DNA of 51,917 nt from Deltaproteobacteria bacterium (lineage in GTDB: Bacteria > Desulfobacterota > Binatia > UBA9968 > JAJDTQ01), in the NCBI GenBank assembly GCA_028818775.1, contig JAPPNE010000153.1, positions 1 through 51,917 of the forward strand, written 5' to 3'. Within the stretch, counting starts at the first letter, position 1; each line of letters opens with the position of its first letter. The position numbers and the translations under genes were made by a program. Below, piece by piece: positions 21,998 to 40,287 of the stretch. Below the pieces are notes generated by a model. The model did no database searches, was not told the DNA's origin, and saw nothing but the letters and a program-made list of their open reading frames with translations.

Positions 21998-22071
21998 GGG
22001 CCCATAGCTCAGTTGGTTAGAGCCACCGGCTCATAACCGGTAGGTCCCTGGTTCGAATCCAGGTGGGCCCA
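21998..22071 (+). tRNA. tRNA with CAT anticodon (Met-elongator or Ile2)
   Basis: A complete 74-base cloverleaf. The acceptor GGGCCCA pairs with TGGGCCC and is followed by discriminator A. The D-arm is AGCTCAGTTGGTTAGAGC, the anticodon stem is ACCGG/CCGGT around CTCATAA (anticodon CAT), and the T-arm is CCTGGTTCGAATCCAGG. CCA is not encoded. A CAT tRNA after rpoD is common in delta-type proteobacteria. Whether it is elongator Met or TilS-modified Ile2 cannot be decided by eye. Confidence 0.95.
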
Positions 22072-32076: not shown

Positions 32077-33165
32077 CTAAAGGCCGTACAGCGCCTTGGG
32101 GTTGTGGTACAGGATGTTGTCCTTCCGCTCCTGGCTGATGTCGTCCATCTTCTTCAGGTCGAGGATGGCGTCCATCTCGCTGGACGGGTCGGTGTGGCCG
32201 TAGTCGGTGCCGATGACCAGGTTGCCCTCGCCCGAGTACTTGAGCACGTAAGGGATGTCGTCGTTGGTCTGGCAGGTGACGTAGATGCCGTACTCGGCGA
32301 ACAGGTCCTTGGGGAACTCGCGTCCGGCCGCCTGGTAGCGGTTCTCGCTTTCCAGGTAGATCCACGGCACCCACTGGGAGGAGGCTTCGATGAAGCCCCA
32401 CCGGAGTTTCGGGAACACCTGGGGAATCTCGCTCATGACGAGGCCCAGGCACGAGGTGACCGTGGGCGCCCGGAACATGGCGAAGCGGCCCGCCGTGGTC
32501 GGACGGTAGGTGTCGCAGTTGCCGGGATTGCCGTTGGCGATGTGCACGGCGACGGCCATGTCCAGGTCGCTGGCCGCCTGGTAGACGGGGTAGAAGTACG
32601 GGTCGCACATGTCCCGGTCCCCCTCCAGCGGCCTCATGCACACCGCCACCGCGCCGTCTTCCTGGGCCTGCTTCATCTGCGCTACCGCTTCGTCCAGGGC
32701 CAGCACCGGCACCACGCACGACCAGCGCAGCCGGCCCTGGCTCTGCCGGTAGATGTCGCCGAGCCAGCGGTTCCAGCTCCGGCACAGCGCGACTTCCACG
32801 TCCGGCTTGGTCGTGATCTGTTCGATCCAGAAAGTGTTGTGCAGCACCTGGACATCGACCCCGAGCTTTTCCATGTGGTCGAGCCGAAGCTGCACGTCGT
32901 CCAGCTCGCGCGCGGCCTGCGGCGACTCGACGTTCCGTCCGAACTGGTCCGACAGGTCCCTCAGTTGCTGCTCGCTGTAGGTCGGAAAGCGGAACCCGCG
33001 GATCTTCTCGTCGATGACCCAGTACTGGAGCGTGGGCTCCTGGGGCGAGGAGAACAGCGACGGGCGGTACTTCTCCTCCGACGGTTCCAGGTAATCCCAC
33101 GTGTGCTCCGTCTCGATCACGTGGGCGTCCGCATCGATAACGGGGAGGCTCTCCTGGCTGGACAT
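32077..33165 (-). CDS. amidohydrolase family protein
   Basis: A 362-residue PF04909-type metal hydrolase. VIDADAHVIETEHTWDYLEP gives the D-x-D-x-H opening, RLDHMEKLGVDVQVLHNTFW follows, AVAVHIANGNPG has the barrel His, and VIGTDYGHTDPSSEMDAI the catalytic Asp and His. It is clearly homologous to the gene at 36995-38071 (the same opening, the same W-N/N-R-W-L segment and the same GTDYGH tail). AAGGAGA lies 7 bases before ATG 33165; an in-frame upstream extension is not conserved. It is part of the SDR-amidohydrolase-TAXI-MFS operon. Confidence 0.88.
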   Translation of the reverse strand: MSSQESLPVIDADAHVIETEHTWDYLEPSEEKYRPSLFSSPQEPTLQYWVIDEKIRGFRFPTYSEQQLRDLSDQFGRNVESPQAARELDDVQLRLDHMEKLGVDVQVLHNTFWIEQITTKPDVEVALCRSWNRWLGDIYRQSQGRLRWSCVVPVLALDEAVAQMKQAQEDGAVAVCMRPLEGDRDMCDPYFYPVYQAASDLDMAVAVHIANGNPGNCDTYRPTTAGRFAMFRAPTVTSCLGLVMSEIPQVFPKLRWGFIEASSQWVPWIYLESENRYQAAGREFPKDLFAEYGIYVTCQTNDDIPYVLKYSGEGNLVIGTDYGHTDPSSEMDAILDLKKMDDISQERKDNILYHNPKALYGL

Positions 33166-33288
33166 GGCGTGTCTCCTTGATACGCGGCCCGAGAGGTTCC
33201 GGGCCGGCAGGTTTTTCGGGCGAACCGCGCGGCGGCGGCCGGCACTCAACCGTCAAATTCGACCAAGAGCGGGCGTTTGTCAACCGGC

Positions 33289-35072: not shown

Positions 35073-35975
35073 TCAACGGTACGTGATGAGCGCGATGCCG
35101 GTGACAATGAGCAGCGCGCCGGCGGCGACGCGGGCGTTGATGGTCTCCAGGTCCCGAAGGAACAGCGCGCTGAAGAGCACGATGAAGAGCGGGTTCGTGT
35201 TGATGAGCGGCACCACCACGGACACGTCGCCCTCGGCCAGGGCGATGTAGCCCAGCAGTTGCGCGGTGGCCGAGACCACGGCGGCGGTGCCGTAGAACGG
35301 CAGGCACTTCCGGTCGCCCCGGAGGGTGTGCAACTGCCCCGTCGCCACGAGGCTCAATGAGAACACCACCAGCGACGTGGTGATGGTGACCGCCGTGGCG
35401 ACATAGGGGTTGGGCATGATCAGGAGCCCGGTCTTGCGGAAGTTCTGCGAGATGGCCGTGAGGAAGGCCGCGCCCAGCGGATACGCCAGGTGAATTGCCT
35501 TCCACTCGCTCTCTCCCTCCCGTCGGCTCGAGGTGAGCCAGACCCCGACGACGCTCAGCAACGACCCCAGGTAGACGCCGGCGTCGGGCCGTTCGCCGAG
35601 AAACGAGAAGGCGATGGCGATGGCGAACAGCGGCGTCACGCTGCGCACCGGGCCGGCGCGCGACGCGCCCAGGCGGACGATGCCGGTGTAGTGGAGGAAG
35701 CGGACGATGGCCGGCTGAATCAGCCCGCTGATGATGAAGTACCAGGTGCCTCGGGTGTAGAGCAGACTTAGCGGAAGGAAGAGCCAGATGGCGCTCCACA
35801 GCACCACCGTGCTCAGCACGAAGCCCATGAGCGCGGCGAGCACGACGCTGGCGTAGCGCGCGCCGCGGCGCACCAGGATCGCCTCGGAACCCCAGGCCAC
35901 CGCCGCGCTCAGGGCTAGTAGCTCGGCGCCCAGACTTACTCCAGCACGAGCGGCGTGTCGTCGCGGTTGGCCCAC
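35073..35975 (-). CDS. EamA/DMT family transporter, start overlapping the Sec-rhodanese gene
   Basis: A 10-helix DMT protein of about 300 residues with two EamA repeats: first LLALSAAVAWGSEAILVRRG ... TPLFAIAIAFSFLGERPDAG, second AAFLTAISQNFRKTG ... VPLINTNPLFIVLFSALFLR. The fold begins right after the stop of the upstream rhodanese. There is no ATG: a GTG at 35975 starts inside the rhodanese C-terminal coding region, and a CTG at 35933 has GGAG 5 bases ahead. Either way its translation start is within, or right after, the part of the rhodanese made only if the UGA is read through. It is likely a small-molecule exporter. Confidence 0.75.
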   Translation of the reverse strand: MGQPRRHAARAGVSLGAELLALSAAVAWGSEAILVRRGARYASVVLAALMGFVLSTVVLWSAIWLFLPLSLLYTRGTWYFIISGLIQPAIVRFLHYTGIVRLGASRAGPVRSVTPLFAIAIAFSFLGERPDAGVYLGSLLSVVGVWLTSSRREGESEWKAIHLAYPLGAAFLTAISQNFRKTGLLIMPNPYVATAVTITTSLVVFSLSLVATGQLHTLRGDRKCLPFYGTAAVVSATAQLLGYIALAEGDVSVVVPLINTNPLFIVLFSALFLRDLETINARVAAGALLIVTGIALITYR

Positions 35976-36784
35976 TCGGCCATGGAGCCGTCGTAGTTGC
36001 GTGCCCGTTCGTAACCCAGCAGTGTCAGGACAAAGACTCCGTGCGCCGCACGGATGCCGCCCTGTCAATACGTGACCACTTCACGATCGGGTGGAACCCC
36101 CGCCTGCTCCAGCAGGCTGCGCAGCTCGCCGGCCTCCTTGAAGGTCCGGTAGGGCTTGTCGTGGACGAAGTTGAGCCACTCCAGGTGCACGGCCCCGGGT
36201 ATGCGGCCGGCGCGCTTGTTGCCGCGGTTGTTGGCCCCCGTCCACTCGCCGTCCGAGCGCACGTCGAGGAACACCACGTCCGGGTTGCCCACGGCGGCGG
36301 TGCCGTAGTCCACGGTGCACACCAGGTCCGGATTGGCCTTGGGAGTGAAGGTGGCCGCGTCCGGCCTGGGCACGTCCAGGGTCGCCGGACGGCCCTCGTC
36401 GAACCACTTCTGCCAGCCGCCGTTGAGCACCGTCACCTTGGTGTGGCCGTAGTAGTTCAGCACCCACCACAGGCGCGCCGCCCACAGCGAACCGTTGCTG
36501 TCGTAGGCCACGACATGCGTCTCGTCGCCGATGCCCAGGCTCTCCATGACCTCCCTGGCCGTGTCCGGAGGCGCTACCAGCGGGTACTTGCGCGGGTCCG
36601 TGGGGTATTCCGGCTGCTTGATGTAGTGGTGCACGCGGATGCCCGCCGCGCCCTTGATGTGCGCCCGGCGGTAGACGTCGTAGGGGTCGCAGTCGACGAT
36701 GCGGATGTCCGGGTCGTCGAGATGCTGCTCCAGCCAATCCGTCTCCGTCAACAGGTCCGGGCGCGCATAGCCTGCCTGTGCCAT
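35936..36784 (-). CDS. two-domain rhodanese/3-mercaptopyruvate-type sulfurtransferase, probable selenoprotein (UGA at codon 240)
   Basis: Starting at ATG 36784 (GGGAGGTGG upstream), an N-terminal rhodanese domain (IRIVDCDPYDVYRRAHIKGA; HVVAYDSNGSLWAARLWWVL) is followed by the catalytic domain (VVFLDVRSDGEWTG; RIPGAVHLEWLNFV). At EVVTY the frame meets TGA (36067-36065) instead of the TGC/TGT for the catalytic Cys. It then continues QGGIRAAHGVFVLTLLGYER and RARNYDGSMAEWANRDDTPL to TAA at 35936. These 42 codons are the normal conserved C-terminus. Right after UGA, CAGG/CCUG pairs as a lower stem and UCCGUGC/GCACGGA as a 7-bp upper stem around a GGC loop, 17 bases from the UGA. This fits the bacterial SECIS layout. 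The likely product is a 282-residue sulfurtransferase with Sec240. The alternative is a nonsense mutation. Confidence 0.78.
36026..36067 (-). promoter_or_regulatory. candidate bacterial SECIS element with UGA(Sec)
   Basis: UGA is at 36067-36065. The lower stem is CAGG (36064-36061) with CCUG (36029-36026). The upper stem is UCCGUGC (36054-36048) with GCACGGA (36044-36038), with apical loop GGC (36047-36045). The distance from UGA to the loop is 17 bases, and the first loop base is G. SelB-dependent elements in bacteria typically have this spacing and a G near the loop start. Confidence 0.65.
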
Positions 36785-36994
36785 GAGTCCACCTCCCGTT
36801 CTGCCGGTTCCGGCGCATCGGCTCCCGTAACCAAGTCGCGAGCCAGCCGGACCGACGTGTCGAATCTGTACCAAATGAAATGACGGCGCGCGAGAGCCGC
36901 CGGGTTGAACTTTCGACGCGTCCTGGGCGAGAATGATTCCGGGCGGCGAGCCGGGCCTGATACCGAGCCCAATAAATCCGCGGGAGGAAACGAC

Positions 36995-38071
36995 ATGTCA
37001 CTGTTCATCGACGCCGACGCGCACGTGATCGAGAACGAACAGACCTGGGAGTTCATGGCCGAGGAGGACCGCCACCTGGCGCCCGACCTGCTGGTGTCAC
37101 AGAGCACGGGGCTGCGCTACTGGCGCATCGACGAGCGCGTGGTGCCCAACACCAACATCGGCCTCAACACTTCCGCGGAATCCCGCGAACTGGTCAATGT
37201 GGGGGCGCGCATCGCCCACATGGACGAGCTGTCCGTGGACATCCAGGTGATCTATCCGACCATGTTCCTGCGACCCCTGACCGCTCGCGGCGACGTGGAG
37301 CGGGCGCTCTGCCGGGCCTACAACCGCTGGCTGGCGGAGATCTGGAAGCAGGGGGGCGGGCGCCTGCGCTGGGTGGTGGTGGCGCCGCTGCGGTCCATGG
37401 ACCAGGCCATCGAGGAGATCCACTTCGGCAAGGAGCACGGCGCCTGCGGCGTGTTCATGCGCGGCATCGAGGGCGGGCGGCTGCTCTCCGACGACACGCT
37501 CTTCCCCATTTACCGGGAGGCCGGCGACCTCGACATCCCCATCTGCGTGCATGCCGGCGGGGGCAGCTTCGACCACTACGACCTGTTCCTCCAGGACACG
37601 TTCGCGCGCTTCAAGCTGTCCACCGTGGGCGCGTTCAACAATCTCATCTACAAGGGTGTTCCGGACAAGTTTCCGGACCTGCGCTGGTGCTTCGTGGAAT
37701 CCACGTCCCAATGGGTGCCCTACGCTCTGAACGACCTGATGATCCGCACCCAGGCGGAGCTGGCGTTCCGCCGCAAGCATGCGGACAACGCGCTGGCGGC
37801 GGTGCGCGGCGCGCCGCGGGAGTTGGCCAACGGCAACCTGCTCAAGGAGAACCGCATCTACGTGGCCTGCCAGACCACGGACGACCTGTCCTACGTGCTG
37901 GAATACGCCGGCGAGGACAACATCATCGTCGGCACCGACTACGGGCACGCGGACTACTCCAACGACATGGAAGCCATCGCCAAGCTGTCCAAGGACGGCG
38001 TGCTCGCCGGCGGCGTCGCGGACAAGATCCTGAGCGAGAACCCGGCACGGCTGTACGGCCTGCAGGATTGA
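36995..38071 (+). CDS. amidohydrolase family protein
   Basis: A 358-residue homologue of the product at 32077-33165. LFIDADAHVIENEQTWEFMA supplies the first metal motif, IAHMDELSVDIQVIYPTMFL follows, IPICVHAGGGSFDHYD has the barrel His, RWCFVESTSQWVPYALND comes next, and IIVGTDYGHADYSNDMEAI carries the catalytic residues. ATG 36995 has GGGAGGAA 6 bases upstream; the upstream in-frame sequence is not conserved. It heads a plus-strand operon with an LLM oxidoreductase (3 bases downstream) and an MFS transporter. The three likely act on one organic substrate, which is unknown. Confidence 0.88.
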   Translation: MSLFIDADAHVIENEQTWEFMAEEDRHLAPDLLVSQSTGLRYWRIDERVVPNTNIGLNTSAESRELVNVGARIAHMDELSVDIQVIYPTMFLRPLTARGDVERALCRAYNRWLAEIWKQGGGRLRWVVVAPLRSMDQAIEEIHFGKEHGACGVFMRGIEGGRLLSDDTLFPIYREAGDLDIPICVHAGGGSFDHYDLFLQDTFARFKLSTVGAFNNLIYKGVPDKFPDLRWCFVESTSQWVPYALNDLMIRTQAELAFRRKHADNALAAVRGAPRELANGNLLKENRIYVACQTTDDLSYVLEYAGEDNIIVGTDYGHADYSNDMEAIAKLSKDGVLAGGVADKILSENPARLYGLQD

Positions 38072-38074
38072 CGC

Positions 38075-39085
38075 ATGGCGAAAGTCTCCTTCGGCGTCGA
38101 GATTCATCCCTACTACGACGTGCCCGAACTGATGCGGGAGATCACGCTCGCCGAGGAGCTGGGCTACGACCAGGTGTGGGTGGGGGATTCCCAGCTCATC
38201 TGGCGCGAGATGTACGTGATCCTGGGCGCCGCGGCCCAGGCCACCTCCAGGATGCTTCTCGGAAGCGGCGTCACCAATCCCGTCACCCGGGTTTCCGCGG
38301 TCACCGCCAGCGCCGCGGCGACGTTGCAGGAGCTGTCCGGAGGACGCCTCACGCTGGGAATCGGCAGCGGCTTCACCTCGGTCAACACCATGGGCCAGCG
38401 GCCCGCCACGCGCGCCCGGCTGGAAGCCTGTGTCGATGAAATCCGCGCGCTGTGCCGCGGCGCGCGCGTGCCCGCCGGTTCCGAGGACATGCGCCTCATG
38501 TTCGCGGCGCCGGAGAAGTGCCCGCCCATCGCGGTGGCGGCCAGCGGACCCAAGATGTTGCGACTCGCCGGGCGCATCGGCGACGGGGTGATCCTGGCCC
38601 GGGTCGCCATGGAGGGGGACATGCTCGCGCGGATGCTGGAGTGCGTGAACGACGGCCGTCGGCAAGAGCGCCGGGAAACCGAGCCCTTCCAAACGTTTCT
38701 TTCGGTCTCCGCGGCCGTGGACGAGGACGGGTCCAAGGCGGTGTCGGTGGTGCGGCCGCACGTGGCCCGGTCCATCCTCAAGCCGTTCTGGGGGCTGAGC
38801 CCCGCGGCCGCCGCGGCGGCGGAACGGATGACCGGCCGCTACGACAACTACCAGCACCTGAACCCCAACGCCGCCCATGCCGACGCCGTGCCCGACGACG
38901 TGGTGCCGGAGTTCGCCTTGGCCGGCACCCCCGCCCGCTGCATCGAGACGGCCCAGCGCATGTTCGACAACGGCATCAACCAGATCACCATCCGTCCCTA
39001 CGCCGTGGACGGCCGGCCCCGGGCCAGCATGATCCGCGCCTTCGCCGAGCAGGTGATGCAGCCCATGCTGCGCGCTGACCGATGA
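38075..39085 (+). CDS. LLM class flavin/F420-dependent oxidoreductase
   Basis: A 336-residue luciferase-like TIM barrel: FGVEIHPYYDVPELMREITL, then AEELGYDQVWVGDSQLIWRE, ATLQELSGGRLTLGIGSGFT, PIAVAASGPKMLRLAGRIGD (the flavin/F420-binding 'aasGpk' block), and a helical end. It differs clearly from the LLM protein at the left end. It is sandwiched between an amidohydrolase (3 bases) and an MFS gene whose ATG overlaps its stop (ATGA). Such enzymes reduce or oxidise ring systems or imines with F420 or FMN; the substrate is unknown. Confidence 0.88.
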   Translation: MAKVSFGVEIHPYYDVPELMREITLAEELGYDQVWVGDSQLIWREMYVILGAAAQATSRMLLGSGVTNPVTRVSAVTASAAATLQELSGGRLTLGIGSGFTSVNTMGQRPATRARLEACVDEIRALCRGARVPAGSEDMRLMFAAPEKCPPIAVAASGPKMLRLAGRIGDGVILARVAMEGDMLARMLECVNDGRRQERRETEPFQTFLSVSAAVDEDGSKAVSVVRPHVARSILKPFWGLSPAAAAAAERMTGRYDNYQHLNPNAAHADAVPDDVVPEFALAGTPARCIETAQRMFDNGINQITIRPYAVDGRPRASMIRAFAEQVMQPMLRADR

Positions 39086-40287
39086 ACCTCGTCTTCCTCG
39101 CCGCCGCGCACTTCCTCGATCATCTCTTCATGCTGATCTTCGCGACGGTGGCGGCCTTGCGCCTCGCGCACGAATGGAACATGAGCTACGCGGCCCTGAT
39201 CCCCTATGCCACGCCCGGTTTCGTGGCCTTCGGGGTCGGCGCCATCGTGGCCGGGTGGATCGGCGACAAGTGGAGCCGGCCGGGCATGATCACCATCTTC
39301 TTCGTCGGCATCGGCGTGGCCTCGATTCTCACCGCGCTGGCCGACACGCCCTTCGAGATCGCGCTGGGGCTGCTGGCCGTCGGCATTTTCGCCGCCATCT
39401 ACCACCCCGTCGGCATCGCCATGGTCATACAGGGACGGCGGAAGACCGGCATCCCCATCGCCGTCAACGGCGTCTTCGGCAACCTCGGGGTCGCCGCCGC
39501 CGCGCTGCTCACCGGCTACCTCATCGACACCGGCGGCTGGCGCAGCGCTTTCGTCGTGCCCGGCGCGGTCTCCGTCGTTCTCGGGATCGCCTACGGAGTC
39601 CTGGTATGGGCGCGGCAGGGGAGTGGGGGTGCGGGCCTGGCGGACGATGCCGGCGGCCCGGGCGGCACGTCCACGGTGGACGCGCCGACCATCGCACGTT
39701 CGACGTTCATCCGCGTCCTCTGCATCATCGTGTTCACCACCGCCATCGGCGGCCTCGTGTTCCAGAGCACCACCTTCGCGCTGCCGAAGATCTTCGACGA
39801 GCGGCTCGGCGATCTCGCCGGCTCCGCCACCGCCGTGGGCGGCTACGCATTTCTGGTGTTCGCCATCGCGGCCTTGGCCCAGCTCGTGGTGGGGTACCTC
39901 GTCGACCGCCACTCCGTGCGCACCGTGTTCGCCTTCGTCGGCGGCCTGCAGGCGCTGTTCTTCGCGCTCATGTACCAGCTCACCGGCGCCGCCGCGCTTG
40001 TGGTCTCCGTCGCCTTCATGCTCGTCGTCTTCGGCCAGATCCCCATCAACGACGTCCTCATCGGCCGCATCACCAAGAGCGAATGGCGCAGCCGCGTCTT
40101 CGCCCTGCGCTACATCGTGACCTTCTCCGTCATGGCCTCCACCTTGCCCGTGGTCGCCGGCATCCACGCGGGCTGGGGCTTCGGCGCCCTGTTCGTGGTG
40201 ATGGCGGTGGCCGGGGGAGGCGTGCTTGCCGCCGCCCTGATGCTGCCGCGCGCGGAGGCGGTCGTCGCTCAACCCGTCCCCGCGTGA
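39082..40287 (+). CDS. MFS transporter
   Basis: A 401-residue MFS protein with 12 helices. Motif A is IVAGWIGDKWSRPGMITIFF; ILLGLLAVGIFAAIYHPVGI-type helix 4 reads LGLLAVGIFAAIYHPVGIAM; and the second half has VVGYLVDRHSVRTVFAF. The HPVG element in helix 4 is typical of fosmidomycin-resistance-like/Fsr-related MFS proteins, though the substrate here is unknown. Its ATG overlaps the stop of the LLM gene by 4 bases, so it is translationally coupled and last in the amidohydrolase-LLM-MFS operon. Confidence 0.88.
   Translation: MNLVFLAAAHFLDHLFMLIFATVAALRLAHEWNMSYAALIPYATPGFVAFGVGAIVAGWIGDKWSRPGMITIFFVGIGVASILTALADTPFEIALGLLAVGIFAAIYHPVGIAMVIQGRRKTGIPIAVNGVFGNLGVAAAALLTGYLIDTGGWRSAFVVPGAVSVVLGIAYGVLVWARQGSGGAGLADDAGGPGGTSTVDAPTIARSTFIRVLCIIVFTTAIGGLVFQSTTFALPKIFDERLGDLAGSATAVGGYAFLVFAIAALAQLVVGYLVDRHSVRTVFAFVGGLQALFFALMYQLTGAAALVVSVAFMLVVFGQIPINDVLIGRITKSEWRSRVFALRYIVTFSVMASTLPVVAGIHAGWGFGALFVVMAVAGGGVLAAALMLPRAEAVVAQPVPA

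Follow-up and report, generated by a model that had tools for sequence, protein, structure and literature searches.

The window analysed here, a stretch of 51,917 nucleotides from a Binatia genome, carries on its reverse strand a gene for a two-domain rhodanese with an in-frame TGA at the position of the catalytic residue. Direct reading agrees with the preliminary description of this DNA, which had noted that the frame halts at a TGA and that the family C-terminus continues beyond it, intact, to a TAA. The features of the locus are:

35936-36784, reverse strand: predicted selenoprotein gene for a two-domain rhodanese (thiosulfate/mercaptopyruvate sulfurtransferase-like), 282 residues with selenocysteine (Sec) at position 240; from ORF reading, Pfam and a structure match
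36791-36797, reverse strand: Shine-Dalgarno-like GGGAGGT, 6 nt 5' of the ATG; direct reading
36784, reverse strand: ATG start of the rhodanese; direct reading
36401-36742, reverse strand: N-terminal rhodanese domain, residues 15-128, with an active-site loop (AYDSNGSL) without a catalytic Cys; Pfam and sequence
36065-36067, reverse strand: in-frame TGA, codon 240, right after EVVTY, very probably read as Sec at the catalytic position; ORF reading and alignment
35939-36064, reverse strand: the 42 codons 3' of the Sec codon, which complete the second rhodanese domain with its C-terminal part intact; purifying selection
36026-36064, reverse strand: whole predicted hairpin, including a tentative lower stem, CAGG (36064-36061) with CCTG (36029-36026)
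36038-36054, reverse strand: SECIS upper stem-loop, TCCGTGC-GGC-GCACGGA, a 7-bp stem closing the GGC loop (36047-36045); this portion of the element is the conserved one; fold and homologue comparison
35936-35938, reverse strand: TAA stop of the rhodanese; direct reading

The Pfam rhodanese model (PF00581) matches the protein twice, scoring 126.5 bits (cut-off 22.2). The protein is of the COG2897/SseA type, with the catalytic loop U-Q-G-G-I-R in its second domain; the residues after the TGA read QGGIRAAHGVF...TPLVLE. In other two-domain rhodaneses the loop of the N-terminal domain likewise lacks a catalytic Cys. In an AlphaFold model of the protein (mean pLDDT 83), strand 235-240 ends with residue 240, and the active-site helix 244-255 follows. 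The best structure match of this model is the rhodanese of Thermus thermophilus (1uar; Z 32.8 over 268 residues), and RhdA of Azotobacter vinelandii (1e0c) gives Z 31.1. Both solved enzymes have the same two-domain fold with the catalytic residue in the same place, and in the sequence alignment their catalytic Cys falls on residue 240, which favours the original proposal that Sec stands in for the catalytic Cys. Where they have Cys and the loops CRIAER/CQTHHR, however, the window protein would have Sec in the loop UQGGIR. Another cysteine, Cys32 (window 36689-36691), is kept in 90% of the Sec forms and of the near Cys forms of the family, and not in the distant Cys forms. Because it is kept equally in Sec and near Cys forms, Cys32 is a mark of the subfamily rather than a partner of Sec.

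The protein also has its fold and COG in common with E. coli SseA, a 3-mercaptopyruvate sulfurtransferase (1urh), but it scores far below the cut-off of the corresponding family model (NF008557; 116.5 vs 250 bits), and this counts against assigning a substrate. The loop of the SseA family is of the CGSGVT type and differs from that of the window protein. Selenoprotein rhodaneses with a single domain, such as form 3 (CxU, NF041203), share with the window protein a rhodanese domain and Sec; their motif differs, however, and NF041203 reaches only 38.7 on the window protein against a cut-off of 115, in the N-terminal half only.

The in-frame TGA is widely shared among relatives. In a six-frame search, each of the eight genus members with a match (84-100% identity) showed TGA at codon 240, as did 16 genomes of another Binatia family (f6; 54-61% identity), and none of these relatives has a stop inside the gene other than the TGA itself. 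Homologues from Chloroflexota (SAR202/Dehalococcoidia), found by scanning 85,000 species genomes, also have TGA there. Over all homologous loci, codon 240 is TGA in 86 and TGC in 39, with no third codon; these loci include the same genomes from two collections, and 65 TGA and 38 TGC forms are distinct at the DNA level. The Cys/Sec alternation that had been suggested as a check on the Sec reading thus exists and falls exactly on codon 240, and the catalytic loop starting at the TGA is invariant. Within the genus, pN/pS is 0.18 after the TGA and 0.21 before it, indicating purifying selection on the downstream 42 codons. The pS is lower after the TGA than before it (0.10 vs 0.35), as would be expected if the RNA were under constraint too.

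The genome that contains the window (97.5% complete) encodes the full machinery for Sec, namely the four genes for which a search had been proposed at the outset. A tRNA-Sec gene (selC) scores 73.1 bits against a cut-off of 47, and ARAGORN agrees, with anticodon TCA; selA (581.6 bits), selB (388.2) and selD (372.5) are each above their cut-offs. The last three adjoin one another on one contig (C61), and the rhodanese gene lies on another (C153). The selD gene (G000 C61:8657-9583, locus L059) carries one in-frame TGA of its own, so that SelD itself is probably a selenoprotein. SelA was found in 24/24 TGA-form genomes of the class and, among those examined outside the class, in 29 of 32. The other three (G158, G183 and G186, with loci L098, L139 and L142) gave no SelA match, which was weighed against the Sec reading; these genomes are of about 1.4 Mb, and the missing SelA is probably a matter of incomplete assembly. 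The complete genome of Tepidiforma flava, without SelA, has Cys at codon 240. The idea that Cys-form relatives are those without Sec machinery, taken from one genome (G010), was rejected, because SelA is present in 123 of the 148 genomes of the class, including most Cys-form ones. The machinery is therefore necessary for the Sec form and yet does not predict it.

A hairpin begins directly after the UGA. Reading and folding recovered the layout first described for it, with a lower stem of 4 bp (CAGG/CCUG), an upper stem of 7 bp (UCCGUGC/GCACGGA), and a GGC loop that lies 17 nt from the UGA and has G as its first base. Its minimum free energy is -22.1 kcal/mol, with z -3.3 against dinucleotide shuffles. 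Published rules for bacterial SECIS elements call for a loop of 3-9 nt, an upper stem of 4-16 bp, a G in the first two loop positions, a distance of 16-37 nt from the UGA and a free energy of -7.5 or lower (PMC13188914), and the window hairpin agrees with every one of them. Among codon-resampled controls of the window sequence, 285 of 4000 (7%) fold equally well, and the same 7-bp stem with G at the start of the loop arises in 1% of the resampled versions. The folding evidence from a single sequence is accordingly modest, and it is the comparison of homologues that decides the matter.

In that comparison, the upper stem distinguishes the two forms sharply. Five to seven of its seven pairs can form in the TGA sequences (6-7 in 64 of the 65 distinct ones), against 1-5 in the 38 distinct TGC sequences. 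CGT encodes Arg245 in every one of the 65 TGA forms but in only 5 of the 38 TGC forms (Fisher p 5e-22), although upstream in these TGA-form genes it accounts for only 11% of Arg codons. Similarly, GCG encodes Ala246 in 62/63 TGA forms vs 11/31 TGC forms, and Ala247 in 63/63 vs 16/35. Compensatory changes in the stem were found as well: a G-C pair has become U-A in the TGA loci L141 and L148, swapping Ala246 for Ser and His248 for Asn within 30 nt after the Sec codon, and a C-G pair has become G-C in the TGA locus L157. Codon 249 makes up the 3' foot of the stem, and it encodes Gly in 56 of 63 TGA forms but mostly Ala, Ser or Thr in TGC forms. The covariation score of the element was matched by 1 of 500 shuffles, a kind of score that kinship among sequences can also give without structure. 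A search of the hairpin against Rfam returned no matching family, which was counted against the Sec reading.

These comparisons of homologous sequences argue that the upper stem-loop is a SECIS element, selected in the Sec forms only. The preliminary proposal of a SECIS hairpin thus stands for the fold and for the upper stem, and the specific conservation of the lower stem was not confirmed. Pairing in the lower stem is about equal in TGA and TGC forms (the largest gap is at one pair, 68% vs 42%), and the idea that this stem is conserved as part of the SECIS was set aside, having no support beyond codon constraint.

Three other explanations of the TGA have to be set against this evidence. The assembly is in 189 contigs, and TGA and TGC are one base apart, so one might suspect a sequencing or assembly error for TGC or TGT, or else a recent pseudogene. 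The same TGA is found, however, in independent assemblies that include single-contig genomes (G003 and G050), and the purifying selection on the codons beyond it is not that of a pseudogene; its conservation across phyla in 65 distinct homologues refutes this explanation, whose probability we consider vanishingly small. The TGA could instead be a true stop, as a standard ORF call takes it to be, in which case translation would give a product of 239 residues that lacks the catalytic one, and C-terminal peptides such as NYDGSMAEWANR would not be made. The low pN/pS of the 42 codons downstream, the invariance of the catalytic loop from the TGA onward and the full Sec machinery in the genome make this extremely improbable. 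Finally, read-through is required whether or not the residue inserted is Sec, and the UGA might be decoded otherwise, by genome-wide reassignment (for example to Trp) or by a near-cognate suppressor. But other genes of the genome, for example selA and selB, have uninterrupted frames in the standard code, without any internal TGA, every relative without the TGA has Cys at codon 240, and a SECIS and a tRNA-Sec are present; decoding as anything else than Sec therefore seems no more credible than a true stop. The comparative evidence comprises the conservation of the UGA, the SECIS-specific constraint, the full Sec machinery and the position at the catalytic residue, and it implies that Sec is very probably inserted at residue 240.

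Rhodaneses of this kind have precedents. A 2005 study of the Sargasso Sea reported three Sec-containing COG2897 (SseA) sequences with predicted SECIS elements (PMC1088965), further ones were found in the Global Ocean survey (PMC2398784), and the group is listed in the reviews PMC9312934 and PMC13188914; the statement in the preliminary description that selenoproteome surveys had reported Sec rhodaneses is thereby borne out. The 'form 4, UxxG' of the 2026 review (PMC13188914) is probably the same family as Sec-COG2897. The window protein has in common with the Sargasso Sea sequences the two-domain type, the UxxG motif (UQGG here), a SECIS directly 3' of the UGA and many Cys homologues, a likeness in motif and domain type as judged from the published description. 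Those sequences came from a marine metagenome, whereas the gene described here belongs to a Binatia genus, has the Sec machinery in the same genome and has relatives in another phylum. Since Sec-COG2897 rhodaneses have been listed since 2005, the selenoprotein type was already known, and the window gene is probably an added member. A search of the open-licence literature found none that pairs SAR202 with selenoproteins, and for Binatota with selenocysteine it found one paper, which to judge by its title deals with methane cycling in sponges.

What is new here is the phylogenetic placement of the gene. A maximum-likelihood tree built from 101 proteins requires four changes between the labels Sec and Cys. 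The genus of the window (family f1, Binatia) is placed with strong support within a Chloroflexota clade of Sec forms, and the other Binatia family has its Sec forms outside this clade; a topology that forces the two Binatia groups together is rejected (p-AU 0.0002). The simplest reading of this nesting, within Chloroflexota and away from other Binatia, is transfer across phyla. The rhodanese gene and its SECIS probably moved together, and the donor was probably within the Sec-rhodanese clade of Chloroflexota (SAR202/Dehalococcoidia), with the Binatia genus as the recipient. A search of viral contigs for a homologue of the rhodanese found none, so a phage origin is unsupported, and a plasmid search gave one distant sulfurtransferase.

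The surroundings of the window gene show synteny at the level of the genus only, and no conserved neighbours that reveal a function. The rhodanese region has an Amidohydro_2 protein on either side, both of one family (36905-38071, forward strand, and 32077-33249, reverse strand), and a luciferase-like monooxygenase (38075-39085) and an MFS transporter (39082-40287) are also present; this Amidohydro_2/monooxygenase/MFS arrangement is largely kept within the genus. An ORF for an EamA transporter (35073-36068, reverse strand) can be opened at an upstream TTG that lies within the C-terminal part of the rhodanese, and its true start probably lies after the rhodanese stop. A tRNA gene lies at 21998-22071 on the forward strand (Rfam RF00005, 73 bits). 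In 19 Chloroflexota loci (for example L089, L093 and L147), an arylsulfotransferase-like gene (PF05935) directly follows the Sec-rhodanese. Such a gene is absent at the rhodanese locus of the window, and the PF05935 neighbour serves as a lead towards a role in organosulfur metabolism.

In the proposed mechanism, SelB and Sec-tRNA(Sec) would decode UGA 240 under the direction of the SECIS stem-loop directly after it, within the sequence that encodes QGGIRAAHG. With thiosulfate, mercaptopyruvate or a persulfide as the candidate donor, the selenolate of Sec240 would then take up a sulfane sulfur, forming a selenosulfide, and pass it on to a thiol acceptor. The gain over the Cys forms would be an active site that is more nucleophilic and more readily re-reduced.

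Rhodaneses can carry selenium in vitro, and the enzyme might accordingly be a carrier of selenide or perselenide that feeds SelD, and not a general sulfurtransferase. Cys forms of the same subfamily occur in genomes without SelA, however, and the rhodanese gene stands apart from the selA-selB-selD contig. A supplier of Sec synthesis that itself requires Sec would also be circular, though SelD sets a precedent. Overall, a role in feeding SelD seems unlikely. Somewhat less doubtful, though still improbable, is a broader proposal, in which the Sec-rhodaneses would form a subfamily whose role is specific to selenium, and gene and SECIS would have moved between Chloroflexota and Binatia as one ready-made unit able to work with the recipient's SelB. 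Such a role may be, for example, selenium transfer, or the detoxification of persulfides or polysulfides, for which the re-reducibility of selenium would be needed. The account that we favour with high confidence, as judged from sequence comparison, is that of a two-domain rhodanese with Sec240, made by SelB- and SECIS-dependent decoding of the UGA and probably acquired from the Chloroflexota clade.

Genes of this type are easily mis-annotated as truncated, because a standard ORF call ends at residue 239, before the catalytic residue. The homologues, 65 distinct sequences with Sec and 38 with Cys, constitute a natural experiment in the constraint that a SECIS imposes on the sequence of a protein, with Gly249 and the changes A246S and H248N, which go together with changes in the RNA stem, as examples of the element shaping the protein. 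The window gene also provides a probable case of a selenoprotein gene crossing phyla, and a Sec rhodanese would allow the contribution of selenium to sulfur transfer chemistry to be tested.
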